Positions 332 through 12,070 of a DNA stretch of 64,000 bases are shown one piece after another (the first letter of the stretch is position 1; each line of letters opens with the position of its first letter). The DNA is from Cognatiluteimonas telluris (GTDB taxonomy: Bacteria; Pseudomonadota; Gammaproteobacteria; Xanthomonadales; Xanthomonadaceae), in contig NZ_JAANOY010000001.1 of NCBI RefSeq assembly GCF_011320095.1, forward strand, positions 1 to 64,000. The letters run 5' to 3'. A program made the translations under genes and the position numbers. Under the pieces are notes generated by a model. It was not told the DNA's origin. It made no database searches and saw only the letters and a program-made list of their open reading frames with translations.

Positions 332-2818
332 TCAGTCCTGCGCACTCTGGTAGTCGGCCAGGTAACGCCCGGCGGCGACCGCATACGCGGCGCGCGTCAC
401 CAGCTTGCCCGGGTCGAAATACGCATGCAGCGTCGGCTGCAGGTCGTACGGACCCTGGGTGACGGTGAAGCGCGCATTGATCAGGCCCTGGTCCAACGCG
501 AGCTGCACGTAGCCGCGCAGGGCGACCGGTATCAGCGCCGCATCGGCCAGCGGGATCCGCTGCCCCTGGTAGAACGCGGTCAACGTGCCACTGAACGCAC
601 GCGCCTGGTCCTGCAGCGCCAGGCTCTGCACCAGCGAGTAGGCCAGGCTGACCCGGCTGACGTTGTCGTGGGGACGGAACGCGCCATTGAGCAGACCCAT
701 CACCGGATCCTGTGTCTGCGTCAGGTCGCGCAGCGCCCCGCCGCGCGCCACCGCCGACTCCGCGAACGGATACGCCGGATCGGACGTCGACAGGTCGGTG
801 AACGACGGCTTGTGGTCGAACGGCAGGTGCTGGCGGACGCTGGTGCCCATCAGCAGGTAACGCGCGAGCTCGCTGCGCTTGAGGTACTGGTCCGGACGGA
901 AGTTCTTGTCCGAGTAGCCATCGACGAGCCGGTTGGCGACGGCGAATTCGATCGCCTGGCGCGCCGGATGGTTGGCGACGTCATTGAGCCCGGTATAGCC
1001 CCCGCTGTTGAGGAAACTCACCGTGCCGGTGACCGTGCCCGGCGCGGCGTAGCCGTTGGTGACGCTGAGCGGATCGACATCGGTCCCCGACACCGAGCCG
1101 ATGCCGCGCACGGTGACGCGCCACACGCCAGGCTTGGCCGGCGCACCGGTGGTCACGGTGTCGCCGAGCACCGGCAACGCAATCGCCGATCCATATTGCA
1201 CGCCATCCGGATCGATCAGCACCAGCGCCAGCGTGTTGGCATCGATGGTGGCCTTCGCGCTCACCCACGCCACGTCGGACCCGACGGTGAAGCTCTGTTC
1301 GCCCACCGTGCCGACCGGTGCGAAATCGACCGAGAACGGAATCGGATCCGCGCCCTTGACCAGCAACGCGTTGCTGTTGAACCCGTGCAGCGAATTGACC
1401 GTCGCACCGTAATCGGTGCGCAGGCCGGCCGACGCGGCGATCGCCTCATACACGTTGACGTGGCCGGCGCCGGCTTCCCAGCTGATGCGGCCAGTCATGT
1501 TGGTGGCGGTGCGCTTGAGGATGTCCTTGACCTGCGCCGGGGACAGGTTGGGATTGGCCTCGAGCATGAGTGCGACGATGCCGGCCACGTGCGGCGTCGC
1601 CATCGAGGTCCCGCTCATGTGGGTGTAGAACGGCAGGTAGGCTGGATCCAGCGTGGCGGCGTCGTTCTGCGCTTCCAGCGGCGGCAGCACGCCTTCGAGA
1701 TCGCGGGTGGAGACGATGTCCACGCCCGGGGCGACCACGGTGGGTTCGTTGACGTAGGTCCAGCTCTTGCCGTCGGGCATGGTGAAGGTGCCGGACTCGC
1801 CGCGCTTGCCACGCGAGGAGAACGAGGTCAGCACGGCGTCCTTCTCGCTGGCGCCAACCGAAATCACCCAAGGTGCCTGCGCGTACGGATTGTGCGTGTC
1901 CTCGCCGGGGCCGTCGTTGCCGGCCGCGAACACGCTGACGATGCCGCGTTTGTACAACTCGTAGCTGGCGACGTTGACCGGATCCAGCGGATCGAAGGTG
2001 CCCGAGCTGCCCCAGGAATTGCTGACCACGCGGATCGGATGCGCGTAGCTGAACTGGTTTGTCGCGGCGTAATCCAGCCCGCCGACGGCGTCCAGGATCA
2101 ACAGAACCGCGCCTGATCCATATCCCACCAGGCTCGCGCCGGGCGCGACGCCACGGTACTTGCCGTTGGAGCGCGCGCCGGTGCCACCGACGATGCCGGC
2201 GCAGTGGGTGCCGTGGCCCGAACCCCAGTCGGTGTTGGGCACGCCTTCGACATAGGTGATCGGCAGCATGCTGTCGACCGCGGCCAGGTTGGTCACGCCC
2301 TGCGTGTTCTGCACCACGTGGTTGCCGTATTGCAGGTCGGCGTGGGTGGCGTCGATGCCCGAGTCGTTGATCTCCACGGTCACGCCGGCGCCGCTGTAGG
2401 GGATCGGGCGGCCGTAATCCATCGGGTTCTGGAACATCTTCGTCACGCCCGAGAGCGCATTGGCTTCCTCGTCCATGTAGCGGACCGGGGCGTTGTAGTA
2501 GATCGAGGCGACGTCCGAACGCTGGGCCAGCGCGCGGATTTCGGACGGCGTGGCGAGCGCGCCGGCGATCGGCAACGTGCGCATGGTGATGCCGCGGGTG
2601 ATGCCGAGGGTCTTGAGCGCGGCGACCTGGTTGCTGGTGACCGGGCCGGACTGCTCGTAGCTGATGACGACCTGCAGCTGGTCGGTCGGCGCCGCCTTGG
2701 CCAGGCGGCTGAGCAGTTGCGGATCCAGGTGCGCGTCGGCGAGCGCGACGCCACTGAGCAGAAGGCCGGCGGCCATCGCGGTGATGCGGAAACCGTTACG
2801 TGGGCGGGAGGCGGACAT
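332..2818 (-). CDS. Secreted subtilisin-like (S8) serine protease with C-terminal SLH-like repeats
   Basis: This 828-residue exported protease has the complete S8 triad: Asp in the DSGID motif (about residue 152), His in GHGTHC (about 202) and Ser in SGTSMATPH (about 405). An N-terminal signal peptide (hydrophobic run AAGLLLSGVALA) is followed by an inhibitor-I9-like propeptide region. After the catalytic domain (to about 480) comes a beta-rich segment resembling a pre-peptidase or P-like domain. The last 200 residues hold two to three SLH-like repeats (DVANHPARQAIEFAV, FRPDQYLKRSELARYL). The start was placed at 2818, because the longer ORF adds 43 residues ahead of the signal peptide. It is divergent from the exported protein at 3053 and has a hairpin after the stop. 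It is probably an extracellular protease; the SLH-like end suggests surface attachment, which is inference. Confidence 0.9.
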   Translation of the reverse strand: MSASRPRNGFRITAMAAGLLLSGVALADAHLDPQLLSRLAKAAPTDQLQVVISYEQSGPVTSNQVAALKTLGITRGITMRTLPIAGALATPSEIRALAQRSDVASIYYNAPVRYMDEEANALSGVTKMFQNPMDYGRPIPYSGAGVTVEINDSGIDATHADLQYGNHVVQNTQGVTNLAAVDSMLPITYVEGVPNTDWGSGHGTHCAGIVGGTGARSNGKYRGVAPGASLVGYGSGAVLLILDAVGGLDYAATNQFSYAHPIRVVSNSWGSSGTFDPLDPVNVASYELYKRGIVSVFAAGNDGPGEDTHNPYAQAPWVISVGASEKDAVLTSFSSRGKRGESGTFTMPDGKSWTYVNEPTVVAPGVDIVSTRDLEGVLPPLEAQNDAATLDPAYLPFYTHMSGTSMATPHVAGIVALMLEANPNLSPAQVKDILKRTATNMTGRISWEAGAGHVNVYEAIAASAGLRTDYGATVNSLHGFNSNALLVKGADPIPFSVDFAPVGTVGEQSFTVGSDVAWVSAKATIDANTLALVLIDPDGVQYGSAIALPVLGDTVTTGAPAKPGVWRVTVRGIGSVSGTDVDPLSVTNGYAAPGTVTGTVSFLNSGGYTGLNDVANHPARQAIEFAVANRLVDGYSDKNFRPDQYLKRSELARYLLMGTSVRQHLPFDHKPSFTDLSTSDPAYPFAESAVARGGALRDLTQTQDPVMGLLNGAFRPHDNVSRVSLAYSLVQSLALQDQARAFSGTLTAFYQGQRIPLADAALIPVALRGYVQLALDQGLINARFTVTQGPYDLQPTLHAYFDPGKLVTRAAYAVAAGRYLADYQSAQD

Positions 2819-3052
2819 CGTGGGACTCCGTGGGGTAGCCGCGGGACTTGCGGACACCCCCGTTGTCCCCCGTGTCCGTCCCGCCGCCCATCCGGAACCC
2901 CCATCAGGGCGGTCGGGGAAAACCCCCAGTGCCGTGGCGTATTGCAAAGCCGTTCACCTAACCCGAAAAACAAGCCACGATCACCACACGGCCTTAACAT
3001 GCGGCGTCGTTATCGTCATCGCGATCCGTCTTCCGCCATGCAGGAGCCTGCC

Positions 3053-3922
3053 GTGCGTCGATTCGCCTCCCCGAAGCGGTTGATCAGCGCCGTGCTGCTC
3101 TATGGCTTGTTGGCCTTCGGCAGCGCCTCGGCGCAGAGCGTGTCCGGGCTACCGGTCAATGTCGACCTGCCGATCAACCTCTCGGTGGCCGGGAATGTCG
3201 CGGTTGCACAGATCGGACCGGCATCGCAGCCGATCGCCGAGGTGACGTTGACTTTCGACGACGCCAGCAACCTCAACGTCGCCAGCCTGGGCCTGAGCGC
3301 GCGCCTGGTGGACCTGCAGGATCCCGCGCTGCTGTCGCGCCTGCCCAATGCGAGCCAGGTGCAGCTGGATTCCGCGTTGCCGCTGCTGGTGACGGTTCAG
3401 CCGCCACTGGCGGGCGGGCTCAACTTCCGCCGCACCGGACGCTATGAGCTGCACACCCACCTGCTGCCCTACGCGGTCGGCAGCAACCTGCGCGTGTTCA
3501 AGGCGCCGGTCGGCGGCGCGTTCCGCGATACGACCGAGGAAATCGCGCAGGGCAGCGTGCGTGCGCGCAGCCGCTACGGCGGCTTCTCGCAGTTCCTGGT
3601 CGCGACCGACCTGCGCGAGACCGGGACCGTGGTGGACGCAAAGATCGACTGGCTGCGCGGCCGCGTCGCAACCCTGCCGGCCACGGAGCAGCCTGCATTT
3701 TCGGCCCAGCTGGACGCCCTGCAGTCCGCGCTGGCCCGCGACGACTACGCGACCGCGATCGCCGCCACCGATGCCATCAGCGCGCGCGCGCAGGCACGCG
3801 CAGGCAGTGCGCTGCTCGATACCTGGCGCGCCGGCGGCGCCGACAACCAGGCGGGCGACCTGATCGCGGGTGCCGCGACGCTGAAGTTCAGCCTCGGCTA
3901 CCTGCGCGATTTCGGCCAATAA
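3053..3922 (+). CDS. Exported protein of unknown function, GTG start
   Basis: A 289-residue protein with a clear signal peptide (RRFASPKRLISAVLLYGLL, then cleavage near AFGSASAQS). The mature part has no motif I can name: the first half looks beta-rich and the second half is helical and alanine-rich (about residues 200-270). An ATG lies at 3038, but AGGAG at 3042-3046 sits 6 nt before an in-frame GTG at 3053 that begins directly with the basic n-region, so GTG is preferred. It is divergent from the S8 protease and sits 50 bp upstream of the FHA-GAF gene on the same strand, so it may be co-expressed with the signalling operon. A GC hairpin (gcccggca/tgccgggc, 3928-3947) follows the stop without a T-run. 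Confidence 0.7.
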   Translation: MRRFASPKRLISAVLLYGLLAFGSASAQSVSGLPVNVDLPINLSVAGNVAVAQIGPASQPIAEVTLTFDDASNLNVASLGLSARLVDLQDPALLSRLPNASQVQLDSALPLLVTVQPPLAGGLNFRRTGRYELHTHLLPYAVGSNLRVFKAPVGGAFRDTTEEIAQGSVRARSRYGGFSQFLVATDLRETGTVVDAKIDWLRGRVATLPATEQPAFSAQLDALQSALARDDYATAIAATDAISARAQARAGSALLDTWRAGGADNQAGDLIAGAATLKFSLGYLRDFGQ

Positions 3923-3975
3923 GCAACGCCCGGCATGCCTGCCGGGCGGCACCGGGCGCGCGCTAAGATGCCCGG

Positions 3976-4851
3976 ATGCAGGGGCGCCTGACCGCGTATC
4001 CACCCGACCAAGCCGCCATCGCGTGCCCGCTCGATCCAGCCGCCGCGCTGCGGATCGGTCGCGCCGTCGGCGACGGCCTGCGGCTGGACCACCCGTCGGT
4101 ATCGCGCCACCACGCCGAACTGGCCTATCGCGATGGCGCCTGGCGCCTGCGTGACCTGGGCAGCAAGAACGGCAGTTTCGTCGACGGCATCCGCGTGCAC
4201 GACATGCCCCTGGCGCGCGCCTGCTGGTTGCGGCTAGGCGACATCTACCTGGAGTTCAGCCCGATCAGCGCCGCCGAAGCCGAAGCCGCCGAACGCGGCC
4301 AGCGGGCGCGGCGCGTCAGCGCCCGCACGGCGCGCCTGGACGGGCTGGCGCAACTGGACGACCTGCTGGAGGCCAGCCTGCGTGGGGTGGTCGAGCTGGC
4401 GCAATGCGAACGCGGTTTCGTGCTGCTCGCGCACGACGACCGCTTCGCCGTCCGCGCCAGCCTGGCGCTGACCCCGGCGCAATTGTCGTCCAGTGCGTTC
4501 TCGGGCAGCGTCAGCGCGATCCGGCGCGCGCTGGACCAGCGCCGCAGCGTGGTGGTCAACGACATCGGCCTGGATCCCTGGCTCGCGTCGCGCGCGTCCG
4601 TCGTCGCCGGCGAGATCAGCGCGGTGGTGTGCCTGCCGTTGCTCGAAGGCAGGCAGGCGCTGGGCGCCATCTACGCCGACCGGGTGCGACCGGGACCGGC
4701 GATCACGACGCTGGATCTCGAACTGCTGGAAGCCTTCGCCGAGACCGCCGCGTTGTGGCTTGCGGCACGCCGCACCAGCGACCTGCTCGCCAGCGTCGAG
4801 TCCGGCCTGGACTGGGATGCGATCGTCGCCGCGCACGAGGCCACGCCATGA
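3976..4851 (+). CDS. FHA-GAF domain protein, first gene of a kinase/two-component operon
   Basis: This 291-residue soluble protein has an N-terminal FHA domain (about 20-95) with the phosphothreonine-binding signature: RIGR, then SVSRHHAEL, then LGSKNGSFVDG. A linker follows, then a GAF domain (about 120-280; ...ERGFVLLAHDDRF..., VVCLPLLEGRQALGAIYADR). There is no catalytic domain, transmembrane segment or HTH. FHA domains bind phosphothreonine peptides, and the next gene encodes a Ser/Thr kinase, so it is probably a phospho-dependent adaptor or sensor of that kinase (inference). The stop overlaps the kinase start by 4 nt (ATGA), which indicates translational coupling. Confidence 0.85.
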   Translation: MQGRLTAYPPDQAAIACPLDPAAALRIGRAVGDGLRLDHPSVSRHHAELAYRDGAWRLRDLGSKNGSFVDGIRVHDMPLARACWLRLGDIYLEFSPISAAEAEAAERGQRARRVSARTARLDGLAQLDDLLEASLRGVVELAQCERGFVLLAHDDRFAVRASLALTPAQLSSSAFSGSVSAIRRALDQRRSVVVNDIGLDPWLASRASVVAGEISAVVCLPLLEGRQALGAIYADRVRPGPAITTLDLELLEAFAETAALWLAARRTSDLLASVESGLDWDAIVAAHEATP

Positions 4852-7800
4852 CGCCTCCCGGCCACGACGACGAAAGCGGGCCGGCCAGCGACGCCACCGC
4901 CACCGGTGTCCACGGGCAGGCCGACATCCCCGTCGGCAGCGTGATCGGCGAGCGCTACCGGATCGAGTCCATCCTCGGCATCGGCGGCATGGGCGTGGTC
5001 TACCGCGCGACCGACCTCGCCCTCGGCGTGCCGGTCGCGTTGAAACTGCTGCGTCCGGAACTGGCGCACCGCGCGGACGCCTTCGAACGATTCCGCCAGG
5101 AACTGCTGCTGGCGCGGCAGGTCTCCAGTCCCCGCGTGGTGCGCATCCACGACCTGGCGCGGCACGACCAGCGCTGGCTGATCAGCATGGACCTGGTCGA
5201 CGGGCAGTCGCTCGACCAGCGGCTGGACCACCCCGGCGCGCTGCCCATCGACGAGGCGGTGCGGATCGCGCGCCAGATCGCCGAAGGCCTCGCCGCCGCG
5301 CACGCGCGCGACGTGGTCCACCGCGACCTCAAGCCCGCCAACATCCTGCTCGATGCGCACGGCGACGCCTACATCAGCGACTTCGGCGTCGCGCGCTCGC
5401 TGGCCACCAGCGGCAACACCCGCACCGGCACGGTGGTCGGCACGCCGGATTACCTCGCACCGGAACAGGCGCGCGGCGAAGCCGCCGATGCGCGCAGCGA
5501 CCTGTACGCCCTGGGGCTGATCCTGCACGAGATGCTCGCCGGCCAGCCGCCCTTCGCCGGCGGCACCGTGGCCGAGGTGCTGGCGCAACGCATGCTGCGC
5601 GCACCCGAGCCGGTAACCAAGCGACGCGGCGATACGCCGCCCTGGCTCGCGCGCCTGGTCGACCGCCTGTTGCGTCCGCAGCCGGCGCATCGGCTGCAGA
5701 CCGCGCGCGAGGTGATCACCGCGATCGACACGCGCGAAGTGCCGCGGCGTTGGGCCGACATGTTCGCGCGGCACCGCGGCGCGTGGATGGCATCGGCGGC
5801 CGTCCTGCTGCTCGCTGGCGGTGGCGCGGCATGGTGGCACTGGCGCGCGCACCTGCCGCCGTTGATCGCCTCGCCGCCCCTGGACCGGTTGCTGGTCTTG
5901 CCGATCGAGGCCGGCGGCGCATCCGATGCGCGCGTGGCCGCACTGTCGGCGCACGTGCGCGACGCGCTGGCGCAGGTCCCGGGTTACGCCGTGGTCGACG
6001 GCGATCGCAGCTTGCAGGCCGTGCGGCAGCTCGATCCCGATGGCAACGCCCGCCCGGATCCGGGTGCGTTGCGGCGCGTGGCGGCGGCGCAACGCGTGCT
6101 GCAACTGGGGCTGCACGGCTCCGGGGGACGCTGGCAACTGCTGGCGACGCTCGACGCCGAAGGCCGGCCGCCGCGCGCGCTTCCTGGGCCACAGGCCAAT
6201 GACGCCATCGGCGCGGTGCAGGCCTGGGCGTCGCAACCCGTGGTGCTCGACGCGCTTGGACTGCAGGACCGCACGCTCGACCTGGCGTTGCCGCAGCCCC
6301 GCTCGGCGCTCGACAGCTACGGCGCGGCGCTGATCGCCCGCCGCGAAGGGCACCTGGCCGAGGCGCTGGTGGGCTTCCAGGCTGCTACCAGCGCGGCGCC
6401 GGCGTATGCGGCGGCGTGGCTGGCGCAGGCCGACACCGCGTTGATGATCGGGGAACAGGACGTCGCTTCCGATGCGATCGAGCAGGGCCAGCGCGTCGCC
6501 GCCACGGCACCGCTGCCGCTGCGCGAGCGCTTCGCCGCGCTCCGCGCCGGGATCGAAGGCGATGCGCCGGCGGCGATCGAGCAATGGCGCGCGCTGGTCG
6601 CGGCCACGCCGGACGACACCGAAGCCGCGCTCAACCTCGCGCGCGCCCGCGGCGCCGGCGGCGACTTCGCCACCGCGGTCAAGGAACTGCTGGCACTCTC
6701 GCAGCGCGATGGCAACGATCCGCGGGTCTGGTTCGAACTGGGCAAGTTCTCCATCCTCAGCGGCGACGCGCAGCGTGCGGTCGACGATTACCTGGTGCGC
6801 GCGCTGGTGCAGTACAAGCGCAGCCGCGACCTGTTCGGCGAAGGCGAGACCGTCAACGCACTGGGCATCGGCTACGGCCGCCTGGGCCAGAGCGACGACG
6901 CCGCCGAGCAATACGGCAAGGCCGTGCGGCTGCGGCATGCCGTCGGCAACCTGCGCGGCGAAGCGACCAGCCTGCGCAACCTGGGCAACGCGTTGTCGTT
7001 GACCGGTAAATACGACGACGCGCAGGCGGACTTGCTGCAGGCCCGCGCGCTGTACACCCGTCTTGGCGATCGCGACGGCCTGGCCGCGGTCGAGAACGAC
7101 CTGGGACTGCTCGCCGAGGAACGCGGCAACTATCCGCAGGCGCTGCAGGCCTTCCAGCGCGCGCTCCAGGCCTGGCAGGATGTGGGCGACGCGTTCGGCA
7201 GTGCGCAGGCGCTCAACGACATCGGCTTCGCGCAATACCAGCTCGGCGCCTACAACGACGCCCAGGTCTACCTGCAGCAGGCCGCGGCTGCCTACGAGAA
7301 GCTCGGCGACGAAACCGGGCGCGTGCGCAGCGACCAGGACCTGGGACTGTTGGCGATCGCGCGCGGGCGCTGGGAGGAAGCGCGCCGGCGGCTGCAGGAG
7401 TCGCTTGCGGCCGCCGAACGCCAGCAGATGCCCGAGGAAGCCGCCGTCAGCCGCCGCCACCTGTCCGAACTGGAGTTGCGGCAGGGCCACCTGCAGGCCG
7501 CCATCGACCAGGCGGGAAAAGCGGAAGCCTCGTTCCGGAGCCGCGATGACGCACGTGGCGCCAGCGACGCCGGGCTGCTGCACGTGGAAGCGCTGGTGGC
7601 CGCGCATGCGTTGCCCGAGGCCCGCGCGGCGCTGGCGGCACTCGCCCCGACCCTGGCCGACGCGCCGAGCGAGCAGCGCGCGACCGCGCATCTGCTCGAC
7701 GCGGAAATCGCGCTCGACGCGGGGGATCGGCCGCGGGCGGCGCAGGCGCTGCGCGATGCACGGCACGCCGCCAGTGGTTCCGGCATCCGCCAGTTGCTGT

Positions 7801-8249
7801 TGCGGATCGATCTGCTGCAGGCACGTGTCGACGGGACGCTGGCGCCGGCGCTGGGGGATGCGATCGCATCGCTGGGCCATATCGGCCTTCGCCTGCAATG
7901 GCTCCAGCTGGCGATGCAGCTGGCGCTGTCGTCGCAGGACGCCGCGCGTGCGGCGACGCTGTACAACGAAGCGGCCGCACTGCTGCGCAACGGCGATGCC
8001 TTGCAGGCACCCGCGCTGCATGCGCTCGGCGCCAGGGCGCGCGCCGGGCTTGGCGACGCCGCTGGCGCGCGCGCCGCGACATTGCGCGCGCGGGAGGCGA
8101 CGTCGCGCTTGCGCTCGACGCTGCCACCGGCGTTGCGTTCGCGATGGGACGCCGCGAGTACCACGCCGGCGACGATGGCGCCGCCCGCACCCGCGACAGC
8201 GCCACCGGGTGCCGCGATGACATCACGCGCGCAGCCCGCCACGCCATGA
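4848..8249 (+). CDS. Hanks-type Ser/Thr protein kinase with transmembrane helix and long TPR region
   Basis: A 1133-residue membrane kinase. The kinase domain (about 37-300) keeps all key residues: glycine loop GIGGMG (44-49), VALK Lys66, HRDLKPAN with Asp160, DFG 178-180 and the APE motif near 205. A transmembrane helix lies at about 312-332 (GAWMASAAVLLLAGGGAAWW). A globular segment (340-480) and many TPR-like helical repeats follow (about 488-900, e.g. ALNLARARG, NALGIGYGRLGQ, SLRNLGNALSLTGKYDDAQ), then an Ala-rich helical tail. The activation segment carries several Thr/Ser residues (ATSGNTRTGTVVGT). It overlaps both the FHA-GAF gene upstream and the histidine kinase downstream by 4 nt. 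The longer ORF adds 148 out-of-context residues and was rejected. With one helix, the TPRs should lie across the membrane from the kinase domain, perhaps sensing an envelope ligand (inference). Confidence 0.92.
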   Translation: MTPPGHDDESGPASDATATGVHGQADIPVGSVIGERYRIESILGIGGMGVVYRATDLALGVPVALKLLRPELAHRADAFERFRQELLLARQVSSPRVVRIHDLARHDQRWLISMDLVDGQSLDQRLDHPGALPIDEAVRIARQIAEGLAAAHARDVVHRDLKPANILLDAHGDAYISDFGVARSLATSGNTRTGTVVGTPDYLAPEQARGEAADARSDLYALGLILHEMLAGQPPFAGGTVAEVLAQRMLRAPEPVTKRRGDTPPWLARLVDRLLRPQPAHRLQTAREVITAIDTREVPRRWADMFARHRGAWMASAAVLLLAGGGAAWWHWRAHLPPLIASPPLDRLLVLPIEAGGASDARVAALSAHVRDALAQVPGYAVVDGDRSLQAVRQLDPDGNARPDPGALRRVAAAQRVLQLGLHGSGGRWQLLATLDAEGRPPRALPGPQANDAIGAVQAWASQPVVLDALGLQDRTLDLALPQPRSALDSYGAALIARREGHLAEALVGFQAATSAAPAYAAAWLAQADTALMIGEQDVASDAIEQGQRVAATAPLPLRERFAALRAGIEGDAPAAIEQWRALVAATPDDTEAALNLARARGAGGDFATAVKELLALSQRDGNDPRVWFELGKFSILSGDAQRAVDDYLVRALVQYKRSRDLFGEGETVNALGIGYGRLGQSDDAAEQYGKAVRLRHAVGNLRGEATSLRNLGNALSLTGKYDDAQADLLQARALYTRLGDRDGLAAVENDLGLLAEERGNYPQALQAFQRALQAWQDVGDAFGSAQALNDIGFAQYQLGAYNDAQVYLQQAAAAYEKLGDETGRVRSDQDLGLLAIARGRWEEARRRLQESLAAAERQQMPEEAAVSRRHLSELELRQGHLQAAIDQAGKAEASFRSRDDARGASDAGLLHVEALVAAHALPEARAALAALAPTLADAPSEQRATAHLLDAEIALDAGDRPRAAQALRDARHAASGSGIRQLLLRIDLLQARVDGTLAPALGDAIASLGHIGLRLQWLQLAMQLALSSQDAARAATLYNEAAALLRNGDALQAPALHALGARARAGLGDAAGARAATLRAREATSRLRSTLPPALRSRWDAASTTPATMAPPAPATAPPGAAMTSRAQPATP

Positions 8250-8986
8250 CCACGCCGCCGCCCGACATCGACGCCGCCATGGCCGCCGTCCGCGAGCAGT
8301 ACCAAGGCCTGCTGCGGCGACTGGAAGCCAACGAGCGCGAATTCCGCCGCCTGGGTCGCGCCGTCTGGCGGGTGCAGGAAGACGAGCGTCGGCGACTCGC
8401 CCGCGAGCTGCACGACGGACTGGGGCAGAACCTCACCGCGCTCAAGCATCGGCTCGGGCAGTTCGGCAGCGAACTGCTGCCCGAGCAGTCCGCGCTGCGC
8501 GGGAAGCTCGATGCCGCGCTCGCGTTGTGCTCCGGCGCACTGGAGGACACGCGCAGCCTCTCGCGGCTGCTGCGCCCGCCGATCCTCGACGACCTGGGCC
8601 TGGAACCGGCGCTGCGTTGGCTCGCGCGCAGCACCGGCGAAGCATCCGGCGCCGCGGTGGTGGTCGAGATCGCATTGCTGCCGCCGCTGGACGACGAACT
8701 GCAGACGCTGTTGTTCCGCGTCGCCCAGGAAGCATTCACCAACGCCGCCAAGCACGCCGGCGCGCGCAGCCTGCTGCTGCGGCTGGTGGCGCATGAACGC
8801 GAACTGCAGCTGCAGGTGCTCGACGACGGGCGTGGCTTCGATCCGCAGCAGGCGCTTTGTTCCGGCGGCAGCGGCCTGGGCAGCATGCGCGAACGGCTGC
8901 GGCTGTATGGCGGCCAGCTGGAGTTGCACTCCTCGCCGGGGCAGGGAACCCGGTTGCAGGCGACGGTGCCGCTTGACGCCGGCTGA
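8246..8986 (+). CDS. Soluble NarL-family (HisKA_3) sensor histidine kinase
   Basis: A 246-residue histidine kinase. Residues 10-45 look like a coiled coil; the HisKA_3 phospho-acceptor motif ELHDGLGQ has His56. The HATPase region has an N-box (EAFTNAAKHAG), a G1 box (DDGRGFDP) and a G2-like GGSGLGSMRERL. No signal peptide, transmembrane segment, PAS, GAF or HAMP domain is visible, so sensory input must come from elsewhere, probably from the products of the two coupled upstream genes (inference). It starts in a 4-nt overlap with the TPR-kinase gene. The response regulator follows after 36 bp and is the likely phosphotransfer partner. Confidence 0.92.
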   Translation: MTTPPPDIDAAMAAVREQYQGLLRRLEANEREFRRLGRAVWRVQEDERRRLARELHDGLGQNLTALKHRLGQFGSELLPEQSALRGKLDAALALCSGALEDTRSLSRLLRPPILDDLGLEPALRWLARSTGEASGAAVVVEIALLPPLDDELQTLLFRVAQEAFTNAAKHAGARSLLLRLVAHERELQLQVLDDGRGFDPQQALCSGGSGLGSMRERLRLYGGQLELHSSPGQGTRLQATVPLDAG

Positions 8987-9022
8987 CTGCTCGCGCAGCG
9001 TTGGCCCAAGGGGGCTGTCCAT

Positions 9023-9658
9023 ATGCGCGTGTTGATCGCCGACGACCACACGATGGTCCGCGAAAGCCTGGTGAGCGTGCTGCAGGCCGACGGCGACGTG
9101 CAGGTCGTCGCGCAGGCCAGCGACGGCGTCGAGGCCTTGGAAAAAGCACTGCAGCTGCGCCCGGACGTGGTCGTCGTCGACCTGTCGATGCCGCGCCTCG
9201 GCGGGCTGGAAGTGGTGCGCAGGTTGCGCGCGCAGCTGCCCACCACGCGCGTGCTGGTGCTGACCATGCACCAGGAGGACGAGTACGTGCTGCAGGCCGT
9301 GCGCGCGGGCGCGTCGGGCTACCTGGTCAAGGACAGCGCGGCGGCCGAACTGCTCGCCGCCGTGCGCAGCCTGCATGCCGGGCACGGACATTTCGGCCCG
9401 CAGGCGGCGCGGACGATGGCCGTACAGCTGCAGCATCCCGAGCGCACCCTCGACGACCCCTATGGCCGCCTGACCACCCGCGAACGCGAGGTCCTGCACC
9501 TGATCGCCGAGGGCATGACCACCAAGGAAATCGCGCGCCGCCTGGGCATCAGCGCCAAGACCGCGGAGAACCACCGTGGCCACGTGCTGGAGAAACTCGA
9601 CATGCGCAACACCGCCGAGCTCGTGCGCTACGCGCTGCGCAAGGGCCTGCTGGATTGA
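9023..9658 (+). CDS. LuxR/NarL-family response regulator
   Basis: A 211-residue response regulator. The receiver domain (1-120) has the acidic pair in ADDHT, phospho-acceptor Asp53 in VVDLSMP, the conserved Thr in VLTMH and Lys in YLVKDS. The LuxR-type HTH (about 145-205) reads LTTREREVLHLIAEG, then TTKEIARRLGIS and KTAENHRGHV. It is the last member of the FHA-GAF/Ser-Thr kinase/histidine kinase operon and its DNA-binding output. Candidate targets in the window are the neighbouring exported protein, lipoprotein and protease genes, but no operator was identified. Confidence 0.95.
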   Translation: MRVLIADDHTMVRESLVSVLQADGDVQVVAQASDGVEALEKALQLRPDVVVVDLSMPRLGGLEVVRRLRAQLPTTRVLVLTMHQEDEYVLQAVRAGASGYLVKDSAAAELLAAVRSLHAGHGHFGPQAARTMAVQLQHPERTLDDPYGRLTTREREVLHLIAEGMTTKEIARRLGISAKTAENHRGHVLEKLDMRNTAELVRYALRKGLLD

Positions 9659-9724: not shown

Positions 9725-10204
9725 ATGACGCGTTTCCCGATGGTGGCCACCGCGCTGTTGACTGCGTGCCTGTTGCTGACAGCCTGCCGCACCGGCCCCG
9801 TGCGGCGCGTGTCGGAGCCTGCGGTCAACATCCAGCAGCTCACCGTGCGCGCCGACGGCAACTGGTCGGTGGACCTGCGCATCAACAATTTCAGCAACGT
9901 GCCGATGCGCTTCGATCGGATGGCGTTGGCGCTGACGGTCGGTGGCGAAGCGGCCGGCACGCTCCAGGGCGAGCCCGCGCTGTCGATCGGTCCCGAATCC
10001 GCGGATGTCGCCACCGTTTCGCTGGCACCGACGCCGGCGGCGAAGATCGCGGTCGCCGATGCGCTGGTGCGCAAGGGCAGCATCGCCTATGCGCTCAAGG
10101 GCACGCTCGATGCCGCCGCCGAGGACAGCCGCGCGCGCAGCTACGACGTCGAGCGCAACAACACATTGTCCGCCGTGCCGGGCATCGCCGGCGTCCTGCG
10201 CTGA
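9725..10204 (+). CDS. Small lipoprotein with LEA14/WHy-like domain
   Basis: A 159-residue protein that starts with a lipoprotein signal (VATALLTACLLLTAC, lipobox LLTAC, Cys near residue 20). The mature domain has the pattern of LEA-type 2 / WHy domains: a beta-sandwich with a hydrophobic N(F/V)-rich strand (LRINNFSNVPMRFDRMAL) and a later ALKGTLDA strand. An upstream ATG at 9668 would add 19 basic residues; the 9725 ATG is preceded by GGAGAG and is better placed. It lies 66 bp after the response regulator on the same strand. The function of such bacterial WHy lipoproteins is not clear; an envelope or stress role is a guess. The fold assignment is by eye. Confidence 0.75.
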   Translation: MTRFPMVATALLTACLLLTACRTGPVRRVSEPAVNIQQLTVRADGNWSVDLRINNFSNVPMRFDRMALALTVGGEAAGTLQGEPALSIGPESADVATVSLAPTPAAKIAVADALVRKGSIAYALKGTLDAAAEDSRARSYDVERNNTLSAVPGIAGVLR

Positions 10205-10279
10205 ACCCCGCATTCCCGTAGCCCTGGGGCTACAAATCAACCGTCCATCTGTACCCCGCCAACGGATCAAGCTGCCTCC

Positions 10280-12070
10280 ATGAGCACCTATCGCGCGCCC
10301 CTGTCCGACATGCGTTTCGTCCTGTTCGACCTGCTCGGGGCCGATGCGCTGTTCGCGCGCCTGGGGTTTGCCGAGGCCACCCGCGACGTGGTCGATGCGG
10401 TGCTCGAGGAAGGCGCGCGGTTTTCCGAAACCGTGCTCGCGCCGCTCAACCGCGTGGGCGACGAGGCCGGTTGCCAGCTCGACCCGGCGACCGGCGACGT
10501 CACCACCCCACCGGGCTTCCGCCAGGCCTACGCGCACTACGTCGACGCCGGCTGGGCCGGGCTCGTGTCGCCGGTCGAATACGGTGGCCAGGGCTTGCCG
10601 CAGACCGTCGGCGTCCCGGTCAAGGAAATGATCGACGCGGGCAACCTGGCGTGGGGCAACTTCCCGCTGCTCACCCATGGCGCCACCGAAGCACTACTGC
10701 ACCACGGCGAGGACTGGCAGCGCGATGCATTCCTGGGCCCGATCGTGGAAGGCCGCTGGACCGGGACGATGTGCCTGACCGAGCCGCATTGCGGCAGCGA
10801 CCTCGGGCTGCTGCGCACCCGGGCAACGCCCAACGACGACGGCAGCCATGCCATCACCGGCACCAAGATCTTCATCACCGCCGGCGAGCACGATTTCACC
10901 GACAACATCGTGCACCTGGTGCTGGCGCGGCTGCCGGACGCGCCCGCGGGGAGCAAAGGCATCTCGATGTTCATCGTGCCGAAGTTCCAGATCGCCCGCG
11001 ATGGCAGCGTTGGCGCACGCAATGCGCTGCGCTGCGGCGCGCTCGAACACAAGATGGGCATCCACGGCTCGGCAACCTGCGTGATGAATTTCGACGGCGC
11101 CCAGGGCTGGCTGATCGGCGAGCCGCACAAGGGACTGGCGGCGATGTTCACCATGATGAACACCGCGCGGCTCGCGGTCGGGTTGCAGGGGCTCGGGCTG
11201 GCCGACCGCGCGTACCAGAATGCCTTGCGCTACAGCCGCGAACGCCTGCAGATGCGCTCGCTGTCGGGCGCCAAGGCGCCGGACAAGCCGGCCGATCCGC
11301 TCATCGTCCATCCCGACGTGCGGCGCATGCTGCTGACCCAGAAGGCGCTGGTCGAAGGCGGTCGCGCGCTGGCCTACCACGCCGCGTCGCTGCTCGACAT
11401 CGCCGCGCATGCCGACGATGCCGGCGAACGCGAGCGCGCCGAAGCGCTGCTCGGCTTCCTCATCCCGATCGTCAAGGCCTGCCTCACCGAGTGGGGCGTG
11501 GAATGCACTTACCACGCGCTGCAGTGCTTCGGCGGCCATGGCTACATCGCCGAGCACGGCATGGAGCAACTGGCGCGCGATGCGCGCATCACCACCCTGT
11601 ACGAAGGCACCACCGGCATCCAGGCGCTGGACCTGGTCGGTCGCAAGCTGCTGCAGCTGCGCGGCGCGGGGCTGAAACAGATGCTGGCGATGATCGAGCA
11701 GTTCTGCATCGAGCAGCAGGGCAATGCCGCCGTGGCCGAATTCATCGCGCCGCTGCGCGACAAGGCCGGCGAATGGCAGCAGCTGTCGCTGGCGATCGCA
11801 CAAAGCGCGCAGGGCGATGCCGACGAGATCGGCGCCGCCGCCTACGATTACCTGTTCCATTCGGGCTACGTCGCGCTGGCCTACTGGTGGGCCCGCAGCG
11901 TGGCGGCGGCCGAAGCGTCCTCGCAGCCGGAGTCGTTCAAGCAGGCCAAGCGCGAAACCGCCCGCTTCTACTTCGCGCGCATCCTGCCGCGCACGCTGGT
12001 GCACCGGCAGGCGATCGAAAGCGGCGCGGCGTCGCTGATGTCGCTGCAGGCGGCGGAGTTCGGCACCTAG
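10280..12070 (+). CDS. Acyl-CoA dehydrogenase with extended C-terminal domain
   Basis: A 596-residue FAD-dependent acyl-CoA dehydrogenase that would catalyse the first dehydrogenation of fatty acyl-CoA beta-oxidation. Visible signatures are MCLTEPHCGSDLG (FAD/substrate loop, about 155-170), HKMGIHGSATC, LQCFGGHGYI and the catalytic-base region TLYEGTTGIQALDLVGRK with its Glu. At about 600 residues it belongs to the longer class with an extra C-terminal helical domain seen in many proteobacteria. It stands alone between the lipoprotein and HNH genes, with about 75 bp before and 140 bp after. The substrate chain length cannot be read from the sequence. Confidence 0.93.
   Translation: MSTYRAPLSDMRFVLFDLLGADALFARLGFAEATRDVVDAVLEEGARFSETVLAPLNRVGDEAGCQLDPATGDVTTPPGFRQAYAHYVDAGWAGLVSPVEYGGQGLPQTVGVPVKEMIDAGNLAWGNFPLLTHGATEALLHHGEDWQRDAFLGPIVEGRWTGTMCLTEPHCGSDLGLLRTRATPNDDGSHAITGTKIFITAGEHDFTDNIVHLVLARLPDAPAGSKGISMFIVPKFQIARDGSVGARNALRCGALEHKMGIHGSATCVMNFDGAQGWLIGEPHKGLAAMFTMMNTARLAVGLQGLGLADRAYQNALRYSRERLQMRSLSGAKAPDKPADPLIVHPDVRRMLLTQKALVEGGRALAYHAASLLDIAAHADDAGERERAEALLGFLIPIVKACLTEWGVECTYHALQCFGGHGYIAEHGMEQLARDARITTLYEGTTGIQALDLVGRKLLQLRGAGLKQMLAMIEQFCIEQQGNAAVAEFIAPLRDKAGEWQQLSLAIAQSAQGDADEIGAAAYDYLFHSGYVALAYWWARSVAAAEASSQPESFKQAKRETARFYFARILPRTLVHRQAIESGAASLMSLQAAEFGT

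Follow-up and report, generated by a model that had tools for sequence, protein, structure and literature searches.

Where serine/threonine (Ser/Thr) kinases are linked to two-component systems, the link is mostly known in the form of cross-talk, the two systems being encoded apart. Here we describe a gene block in the first 64,000 nucleotides of contig NZ_JAANOY010000001.1 of the Xanthomonadaceae bacterium Cognatiluteimonas telluris (assembly GCF_011320095.1; this whole stretch is called the window), in which both kinds of signalling are locked together, an arrangement that recurs across nine named genera. Parts of its logic are familiar from described systems. Stk1 is reportedly a Ser/Thr kinase that acts on VraR, the regulator of a two-component pathway, and PknH and EmbR are said to combine a membrane kinase with an FHA protein. 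PknQ and MupFHA likewise pair a membrane kinase with an FHA protein, both encoded on one plasmid, through an FHA-dependent contact (PMC4238996), PknH acts on the two-component regulator DosR (PMC12919924), and in Pseudomonas aeruginosa the FHA protein Fha1 is a listed substrate of the Ser/Thr kinase PpkA (PMC6213207), each as given in the available part of the source. The actinobacterial OdhI/GarA proteins follow a similar paired-threonine/FHA logic, in which, according to the accessible text, the N-terminal Thr14/Thr15 of OdhI are phosphorylated by several Ser/Thr kinases and read by FHA (PMC2784874). The nearest described joining of a Ser/Thr kinase to a histidine kinase that we found, to the extent that the source could be consulted, is in Myxococcus, where a Ser/Thr kinase complex (PktA5 with a second kinase) is thought to act with the EspA/EspB histidine kinase pathway (PMC4320627). 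The gene set described here was not found named or described in the open PubMed Central (PMC) literature, outside of which most subscription journals lie.

The unit comprises the following genes, the first of them most likely, given by coordinates in the window:

332-2818, minus strand: gene for a secreted S8 subtilase with an SLH domain (Pfam Peptidase_S8 9.5e-45, SLH 7.4e-13)
3038-3922, plus strand: gene for a secreted DUF6689 protein (PF20396; Pfam 1.8e-99) with a signal-peptide-like N-terminus
3976-4851, plus strand: FHA-GAF gene, 291 residues (Pfam FHA 2.9e-15, GAF_2 2.9e-12)
4848-8249, plus strand: gene for a membrane Ser/Thr kinase with a TPR ectodomain, 1133 residues (Pfam Pkinase 2.9e-50, TPR_12 7.6e-32)
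8246-8986, plus strand: gene for a soluble HisKA_3 histidine kinase, 246 residues, with His56 and D57-Q61 (Pfam HisKA_3 1.8e-14, HATPase_c 1.2e-12)
9023-9658, plus strand: gene for a NarL/LuxR response regulator, 211 residues, with Asp53 (Pfam Response_reg 1e-29, GerE 8.8e-20)

An earlier sequence-only reading of this DNA had described the last four of these as a same-strand operon, with ATGA overlaps among the first three genes, and its account of them holds: all four are intact, each domain is backed by Pfam, the overlaps lie at 4848-4851 and 8246-8249, and the claimed FHA and GAF motifs, intact kinase, His56 and Asp53 are borne out by Pfam and by residue conservation in the orthologues. The histidine kinase and regulator genes do not overlap and are separated by a 36-nt gap. 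The limits of 3976-9658 drawn at the time were too narrow, as the DUF6689 gene, which is the immediate 5' neighbour of the FHA-GAF gene, was overlooked and is included in the unit, which therefore exceeds four genes. The same is most likely true of the subtilase gene, which has its ATG at 2818, leading into a signal-peptide-like sequence, and is divergent from the DUF6689 gene. An SLH domain on an S8 subtilase is unusual in a proteobacterium.

The order of these genes is conserved well beyond the window. Searches of a family sample of 119 genomes, an order sample of 299 and a class sample of 369 found DUF6689 in 30, 39 and 3 genomes, respectively, and a pattern-based contig scan returned 57 DUF6689 loci in nine named genera (Lysobacter, Luteimonas, Vulcaniibacterium, Rhodanobacter, Xanthomonas, Arenimonas, Silanimonas, Pseudoxanthomonas and Rehaibacterium) as well as in unnamed metagenome-assembled genomes. 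Deduplication left 88 fetched DUF6689 loci, or 89 with the window; three loci lacking DUF6689 (L035, L042, L058) and 31 duplicates had been set aside, among the latter L139, which carries the tandem second DUF6689 of genome G008 (noted at G008:C7:692017-692799) and hence has no separate count. Of the 89 loci, 77 have all five genes on the same strand in the order DUF6689, FHA-GAF, kinase, histidine kinase, regulator, 76 of them identified by script and one (L137) by eye because its FHA-GAF is divergent; the regulators of L126, L129 and L148 were counted as present though cut by contig or locus ends. Ten of the 12 incomplete loci run off the end of a contig, and nine of these still show FHA-GAF and kinase, the tenth (L164) having only 96 nt left. 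The two true exceptions are a second DUF6689 copy (L109) and a partial DUF6689 match (L142). The homologues are thus regular neighbours, as the proposal of a coupled operon had called for. Four-nucleotide overlaps, scored with script-picked start codons in loci with both ends readable, window included, join FHA-GAF to kinase in 53/85 loci and kinase to histidine kinase in 45/78, and their recurrence across loci argues that the arrangement is not due to chance.

In the family sample, a close orthologue of the histidine kinase occurs in exactly the same 30 genomes as DUF6689 (E <= 7.9e-63; next genome 1.4e-43), and these genomes also match FHA-GAF over most of its length, in two pieces in G090; the top FHA-GAF match (G024) has 72% identity. 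FHA-GAF occurs alone in G026, and ten more genomes match its FHA part only or weakly. The G026 locus (L058, 4758-5654 as oriented) holds a near full-length FHA-GAF beside the usual LEA/acyl-CoA dehydrogenase flank, with no matches there for DUF6689, subtilase, kinase, histidine kinase or regulator, and is probably a remnant of a lost unit. The distribution is patchy, with FHA-GAF, DUF6689 and the close histidine kinase orthologue missing from all four other sampled genomes of the window's genus, which could be taken to mean that the genes are merely co-inherited as a mobile or neutral block and form no single pathway. We consider this very improbable, since the order is fixed over the nine genera and eight family labels at ectodomain identities as low as 24%, and since two of the proteins co-vary and both a promoter box and a motif in the kinase tail are conserved.

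The kinase is catalytically well preserved among 78 orthologues, with K66 in 77 and D160, K162, N165, D178 and G180 in all, and each position of the HRDxKPxN and DFG motifs in at least 76. A defect was seen in L053 (G101), where the frame of the kinase N-lobe is lost, the match starting from residue 109 and the frame 354 nt after FHA-GAF, through either a frameshift or a sequencing error. At least one membrane-like segment was detected by hydropathy in 68/78 kinases, although the first segment to be scored falls within the kinase domain in a few of them. Arginine and lysine are in excess on the N-terminal side of this segment in 63/68, balanced in 3 and in deficit in 2, and this charge bias favours a cytoplasmic kinase domain and a periplasmic TPR part, in keeping with the transmembrane topology originally claimed. 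The ectodomain, modelled with a predicted local distance difference test score (pLDDT) of 93.7, begins with a small alpha/beta domain and continues as a long TPR solenoid. The Foldseek matches listed for it, such as LGN and O-GlcNAc transferase, are all built of TPR or other helical repeats and are uninformative as to a ligand; identification of the ligand from the fold was rejected. With a TPR ectodomain instead, the kinase is not of the PASTA type, and its NCBIfam PknB_PASTA score of 280 bits is below the cut-off of 450.

A candidate for a molecular link between kinase and FHA-GAF lies in the cytosolic tail that precedes the kinase domain:

4896-4907, plus strand: TxTG codons (T17-A-T19-G20) in the kinase N-terminal tail, candidate FHA docking site

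The tail is variable in length and sequence save for this motif (T17 in 76/78, T19 in 73/78, G20 in 65/78), and only one kinase, that of L053, is without a tail. In 12 genomes, TxTG occurs no more than 40 residues before the kinase domain in 11/11 kinases of the unit versus 1/58 other kinases, and a looser TxT in 3/58 of the latter; three of 72 kinase matches were not fetched for this comparison, namely two partial matches and the unit kinase of G040 (L062), the tail of which reads TATG. FHA domains read phosphothreonine, as described in the available part of the source (PMC2784874), so docking predicts threonine without serine, and none of the 78 kinases has serine at either position. Conservation of the tail pair exceeds that of the threonines in the activation loop (T191 67/78, T193 30/78), with the exception of T199 before the PDY stretch (75/78). 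On the side of FHA-GAF, the ligand residues G28, R29, S43, R44, H46, S63, N65 and G66 are each kept in at least 83/85 proteins, from which phosphothreonine binding may be predicted. FHA-GAF has no such threonine pair in its own N-terminal tail, and serine or threonine reaches 90% of the 85 sequences only at S41, S43, S63, S178 and S208. The two features appear to vary together: an FHA ligand residue is altered in 4/4 loci in which the kinase lacks an intact threonine pair (L063, L130, L137, L143), and in only 2/72 in which both threonines are present (L065, L158; Fisher 1e-5), L053 and L064 (FHA start misassigned by script) being left out of the count. The tail and the co-variation speak for the earlier idea that kinase and FHA protein together serve as the sensor, in so far as a contact between these two proteins is predicted.

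The other two signalling genes encode a HisKA_3/NarL-type two-component system, as identified by its conserved histidine, N box, aspartate and GerE domain. H56 and N166 of the ATP-binding N box are present in 77/77 histidine kinase orthologues, and the DxxxQ motif at D57-Q61, a motif with a phosphatase role, in 75/77. The regulator has its receiver D53 in 74/74 orthologues together with a GerE DNA-binding domain. That the histidine kinase is soluble and without its own sensor, as proposed, was upheld, for hydropathy found no membrane segment in 77/77 and Pfam no sensor domain in the window protein. Long open frames around histidine kinase matches, considered as possible fusions to the Ser/Thr kinase, were rejected as alternative frames of DNA rich in guanine and cytosine (GC).

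Two other ways of connecting these proteins were considered. FHA-GAF may chiefly restrain the kinase, as a brake or through feedback inhibition, with the two-component pair as a separate, co-regulated output module, much as MupFHA binds PknQ and suppresses its autophosphorylation in the accessible part of that report (PMC4238996). Docking on the tail would fit a brake as well as a relay. We nevertheless hold this to be unlikely, because the histidine kinase has no membrane sensor and stands with the other unit genes in 77/79 loci uncut by contig ends, and because the 4-nt overlap runs on from kinase into histidine kinase. Alternatively, the Ser/Thr kinase may restrain the regulator directly by phosphorylating Thr197 of its DNA-binding domain, the histidine kinase being otherwise fed and FHA-GAF a mere scaffold. 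Position 197 is threonine in 63, serine in 8 and alanine in 3 of the 74 regulators, which is weak evidence since threonine at such positions is common in LuxR-type domains. DosR is likewise of the NarL/LuxR type. It offers a precedent, being phosphorylated by PknH at Thr198/Thr205 in the available text (PMC12919924), and Thr197 of the window matches the DosR site by eye (RNTAELVRYA vs RTQAAVFATE). Such direct phosphorylation would leave the threonine-only TxTG tail and the FHA co-variation unexplained, and we regard it as improbable.

The regulator probably has a recognisable site, as predicted from a palindromic box upstream of the DUF6689 gene. This box, as well as a probable separate promoter of the signalling genes, was overlooked by the sequence-only reading:

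2912-2929, plus strand: palindromic box GTCGGGGAAAACCCCCAG, 23.1 bits by position weight matrix, two mismatches to CTGRGKGAAAWCMCCYAG; candidate response-regulator site
3964-3969, plus strand: TAAGAT, -10-like, located 12 nt ahead of the FHA start; promoter of the leaderless type

In the window the box lies between the subtilase and DUF6689 genes. The 18-bp near-palindrome CTGRGKGAAAWCMCCYAG was fitted upstream of DUF6689 in 71/87 regions, and the same procedure on five shuffled sets gave 0 in each. There are 76 boxes in 36.7 kb of sequence upstream of DUF6689 compared with 18 in 1367 kb, an enrichment that is to some degree built in, as these regions served to train the matrix; the subtilase upstream regions, the control genes and random windows, and the -10 spacing are tests independent of the training. 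At a threshold of at least 15 bits, the box occurs within 600 nt upstream of 12/28 independent subtilases, several of them from close relatives (L056, L059, L168). This count was 14/30 before two non-independent rows were dropped: L111, whose subtilase proved to be the divergent one once the misassigned DUF6689 start was recognised, and L045, whose subtilase at -1980 neighbours a second copy of DUF6689. The same threshold gave 0/28 and 0/30 upstream of two neighbouring gene families, none upstream of the kinase (0/86), histidine kinase (0/78), regulator (0/77) or FHA (0/85) genes, and 1.4% of 3314 random windows. A TANNNT hexamer starts 18-19 nt after the box in 32/49 strong-box loci, which places the box over the -35 region, an activator geometry. 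As to the signalling genes, TAAGAT lies within 20 nt before the FHA start, about 12 nt off, in 41/85 loci, nearly all within the family, and is kept while the remaining FHA upstream region differs, so that a leaderless promoter is probable and suggests that these genes are made from a leaderless transcript. With the box at DUF6689 and subtilase and a probable separate promoter at FHA, DUF6689 and subtilase look like outputs, and the genes from FHA-GAF to regulator like the signalling set. Between the DUF6689 and FHA genes (window 3919-3976) there is also a strong GC hairpin, at -33.6 kcal/mol for the stretch and with no T run.

Allowing two mismatches, CTGRGKGAAAWCMCCYAG occurs in 107/119 family genomes, at 0-10 sites per genome against 0-3 for a reversed-pattern control, and is thus commoner than the reversed pattern, also in genomes without the system. 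Its use as a genome-wide marker of the system was rejected at this stringency, since it occurs both with and without the system.

The putative outputs are predicted to be secreted. Of the 88 fetched loci, 64 have a subtilase match scoring 200 bits or more. Four loci without a subtilase (L140, L151, L133, L144) have, after the regulator and about 6.6-8 kb after the DUF6689 start, an opposite-strand gene for a secreted-looking protein that is FG-GAP-like by eye. These four loci suggest that output genes vary by lineage. DUF6689, a name that a full-text search of the open PMC literature did not find, here gains its first genomic context. Its AlphaFold model (pLDDT 88.8) shows a beta-sandwich and then a helical bundle. 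The beta-sandwich resembles ankyrin ZU5 (Foldseek E 6.8e-3, template modelling score 0.32; VIA-align Z 6.4, root-mean-square deviation 3.3, 131 aligned) and GAIN domains (VIA-align Z 5.0-5.7), a likeness that is only a lead because VIA-align Z values below 8 are weak. The two highest VIA-align rows are unrelated proteins, the GH92 mannosidase 7nsn (Z 7.3) and the pectin methylesterase inhibitor 1x91 (Z 6.9), whose matches begin at DUF6689 residues 176 and 146 and concern other parts than ZU5/GAIN. ZU5 and GPS/GAIN form one superfamily that includes bacterial surface proteins, according to the accessible part of the source (PMC3482391). Among 53 DUF6689 sequences F182-S183 is invariant, with glycine preceding in the majority, and no autoproteolytic histidine or cysteine is conserved there; indeed no cysteine or histidine is invariant, H138, away from this site, being kept at 90% or more. 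A DUF6689 profile found nothing below E 0.11 among PDB sequences.

From the conserved unit, tail motif, co-variation, box and promoter geometry computed among the relatives, we infer a dedicated hybrid relay that runs from kinase to FHA-GAF, histidine kinase, regulator and secreted proteins. The TPR ectodomain would sense a signal in the envelope, which may be the DUF6689 protein or a product of the subtilase, upon which the kinase would phosphorylate its own cytosolic TxTG tail and the FHA domain of FHA-GAF would dock on the resulting phosphothreonine. FHA-GAF, via its GAF domain, could then switch the sensorless and probably bifunctional (kinase/phosphatase) histidine kinase, which would phosphorylate Asp53 of the regulator. 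The regulator would in turn bind the CTGRGKGAAAWCMCCYAG box and may thereby activate the DUF6689 and subtilase genes; many relatives have this box across the -35 region of the promoter of DUF6689, and it is found in front of subtilase genes as well. We give this proposal as a whole a probability of roughly 0.5; the relay from kinase through regulator and box to secreted proteins is the most economical reading, though we acknowledge that the present data separate it poorly from its rivals. A wider version, in which FHA-GAF replaces the sensor domain of a conserved Ser/Thr-to-His-Asp relay and the ZU5/GAIN-like DUF6689 and subtilases feed back on the TPR ectodomain as an envelope protease-sensing loop, is tentative and in our estimation more probably wrong than right.

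Several observations count against the relay. Many loci come from related species, so the counts are not independent events. In the co-variation, L130 and L143 share one genus label (g344) and L137 was judged by eye, which leaves at most three independent lineages and a true weight below the Fisher value. The window kinase's own membrane span falls under the hydropathy cut, and no fusion of kinase and histidine kinase, a find that would have spoken for coupling, turned up. As to the promoters, 16/87 loci pass no box threshold, the window's box is without a -10-like element at the usual spacing of 18-19 nt, the box pattern with two mismatches does not mark the system genome-wide, and the FHA promoter, having no box, gives no sign of direct autoregulation from there. 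Among the outputs, 24/88 fetched loci show no subtilase, a few because of contig ends, and the orphan DUF6689 of L109 (Lysobacter sp. Root494, 10001-10756) stands without signalling genes and box in a genome that also carries a full unit. Our findings nonetheless highlight a block for which a docking motif can be proposed and an adaptor, a DNA site and secreted targets predicted, so that how a threonine kinase could drive a histidine kinase becomes directly testable in non-pathogenic Lysobacter.

The unit also differs from the described systems. To our knowledge neither PknH-DosR nor Stk1-VraR forms one conserved operon or has an FHA adaptor, and we know of no histidine kinase or regulator in PpkA-Fha1-PppA. 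The histidine kinases of the PknH-DosR and Stk1-VraR systems also have their own sensors. PpkA-Fha1-PppA acts on Hcp1 secretion and has a PP2C phosphatase as partner in the available text (PMC6213207), and Pfam shows no PP2C phosphatase among the four signalling genes of the window. For PknQ-MupFHA the model places the contact at the activation loop, and the part of the paper at hand mentions no histidine kinase (PMC4238996). In OdhI/GarA, again as far as the accessible source goes (PMC2784874), the threonines lie inside the FHA protein and the targets are metabolic enzymes, whereas the pair in the window lies in the kinase tail. The FHA protein of the window matches NCBIfam EspA weakly over its FHA part (E 9.1e-6) and fails the model, at 24 bits against a cut-off of 1400. 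EspA itself, in the available portion of its description, is a single hybrid histidine kinase that carries a receiver of its own and has MrpC turnover as its output (PMC4320627), whereas the window has a separate FHA-GAF protein, a soluble histidine kinase and a DNA-binding regulator, together with DUF6689 and protease genes.

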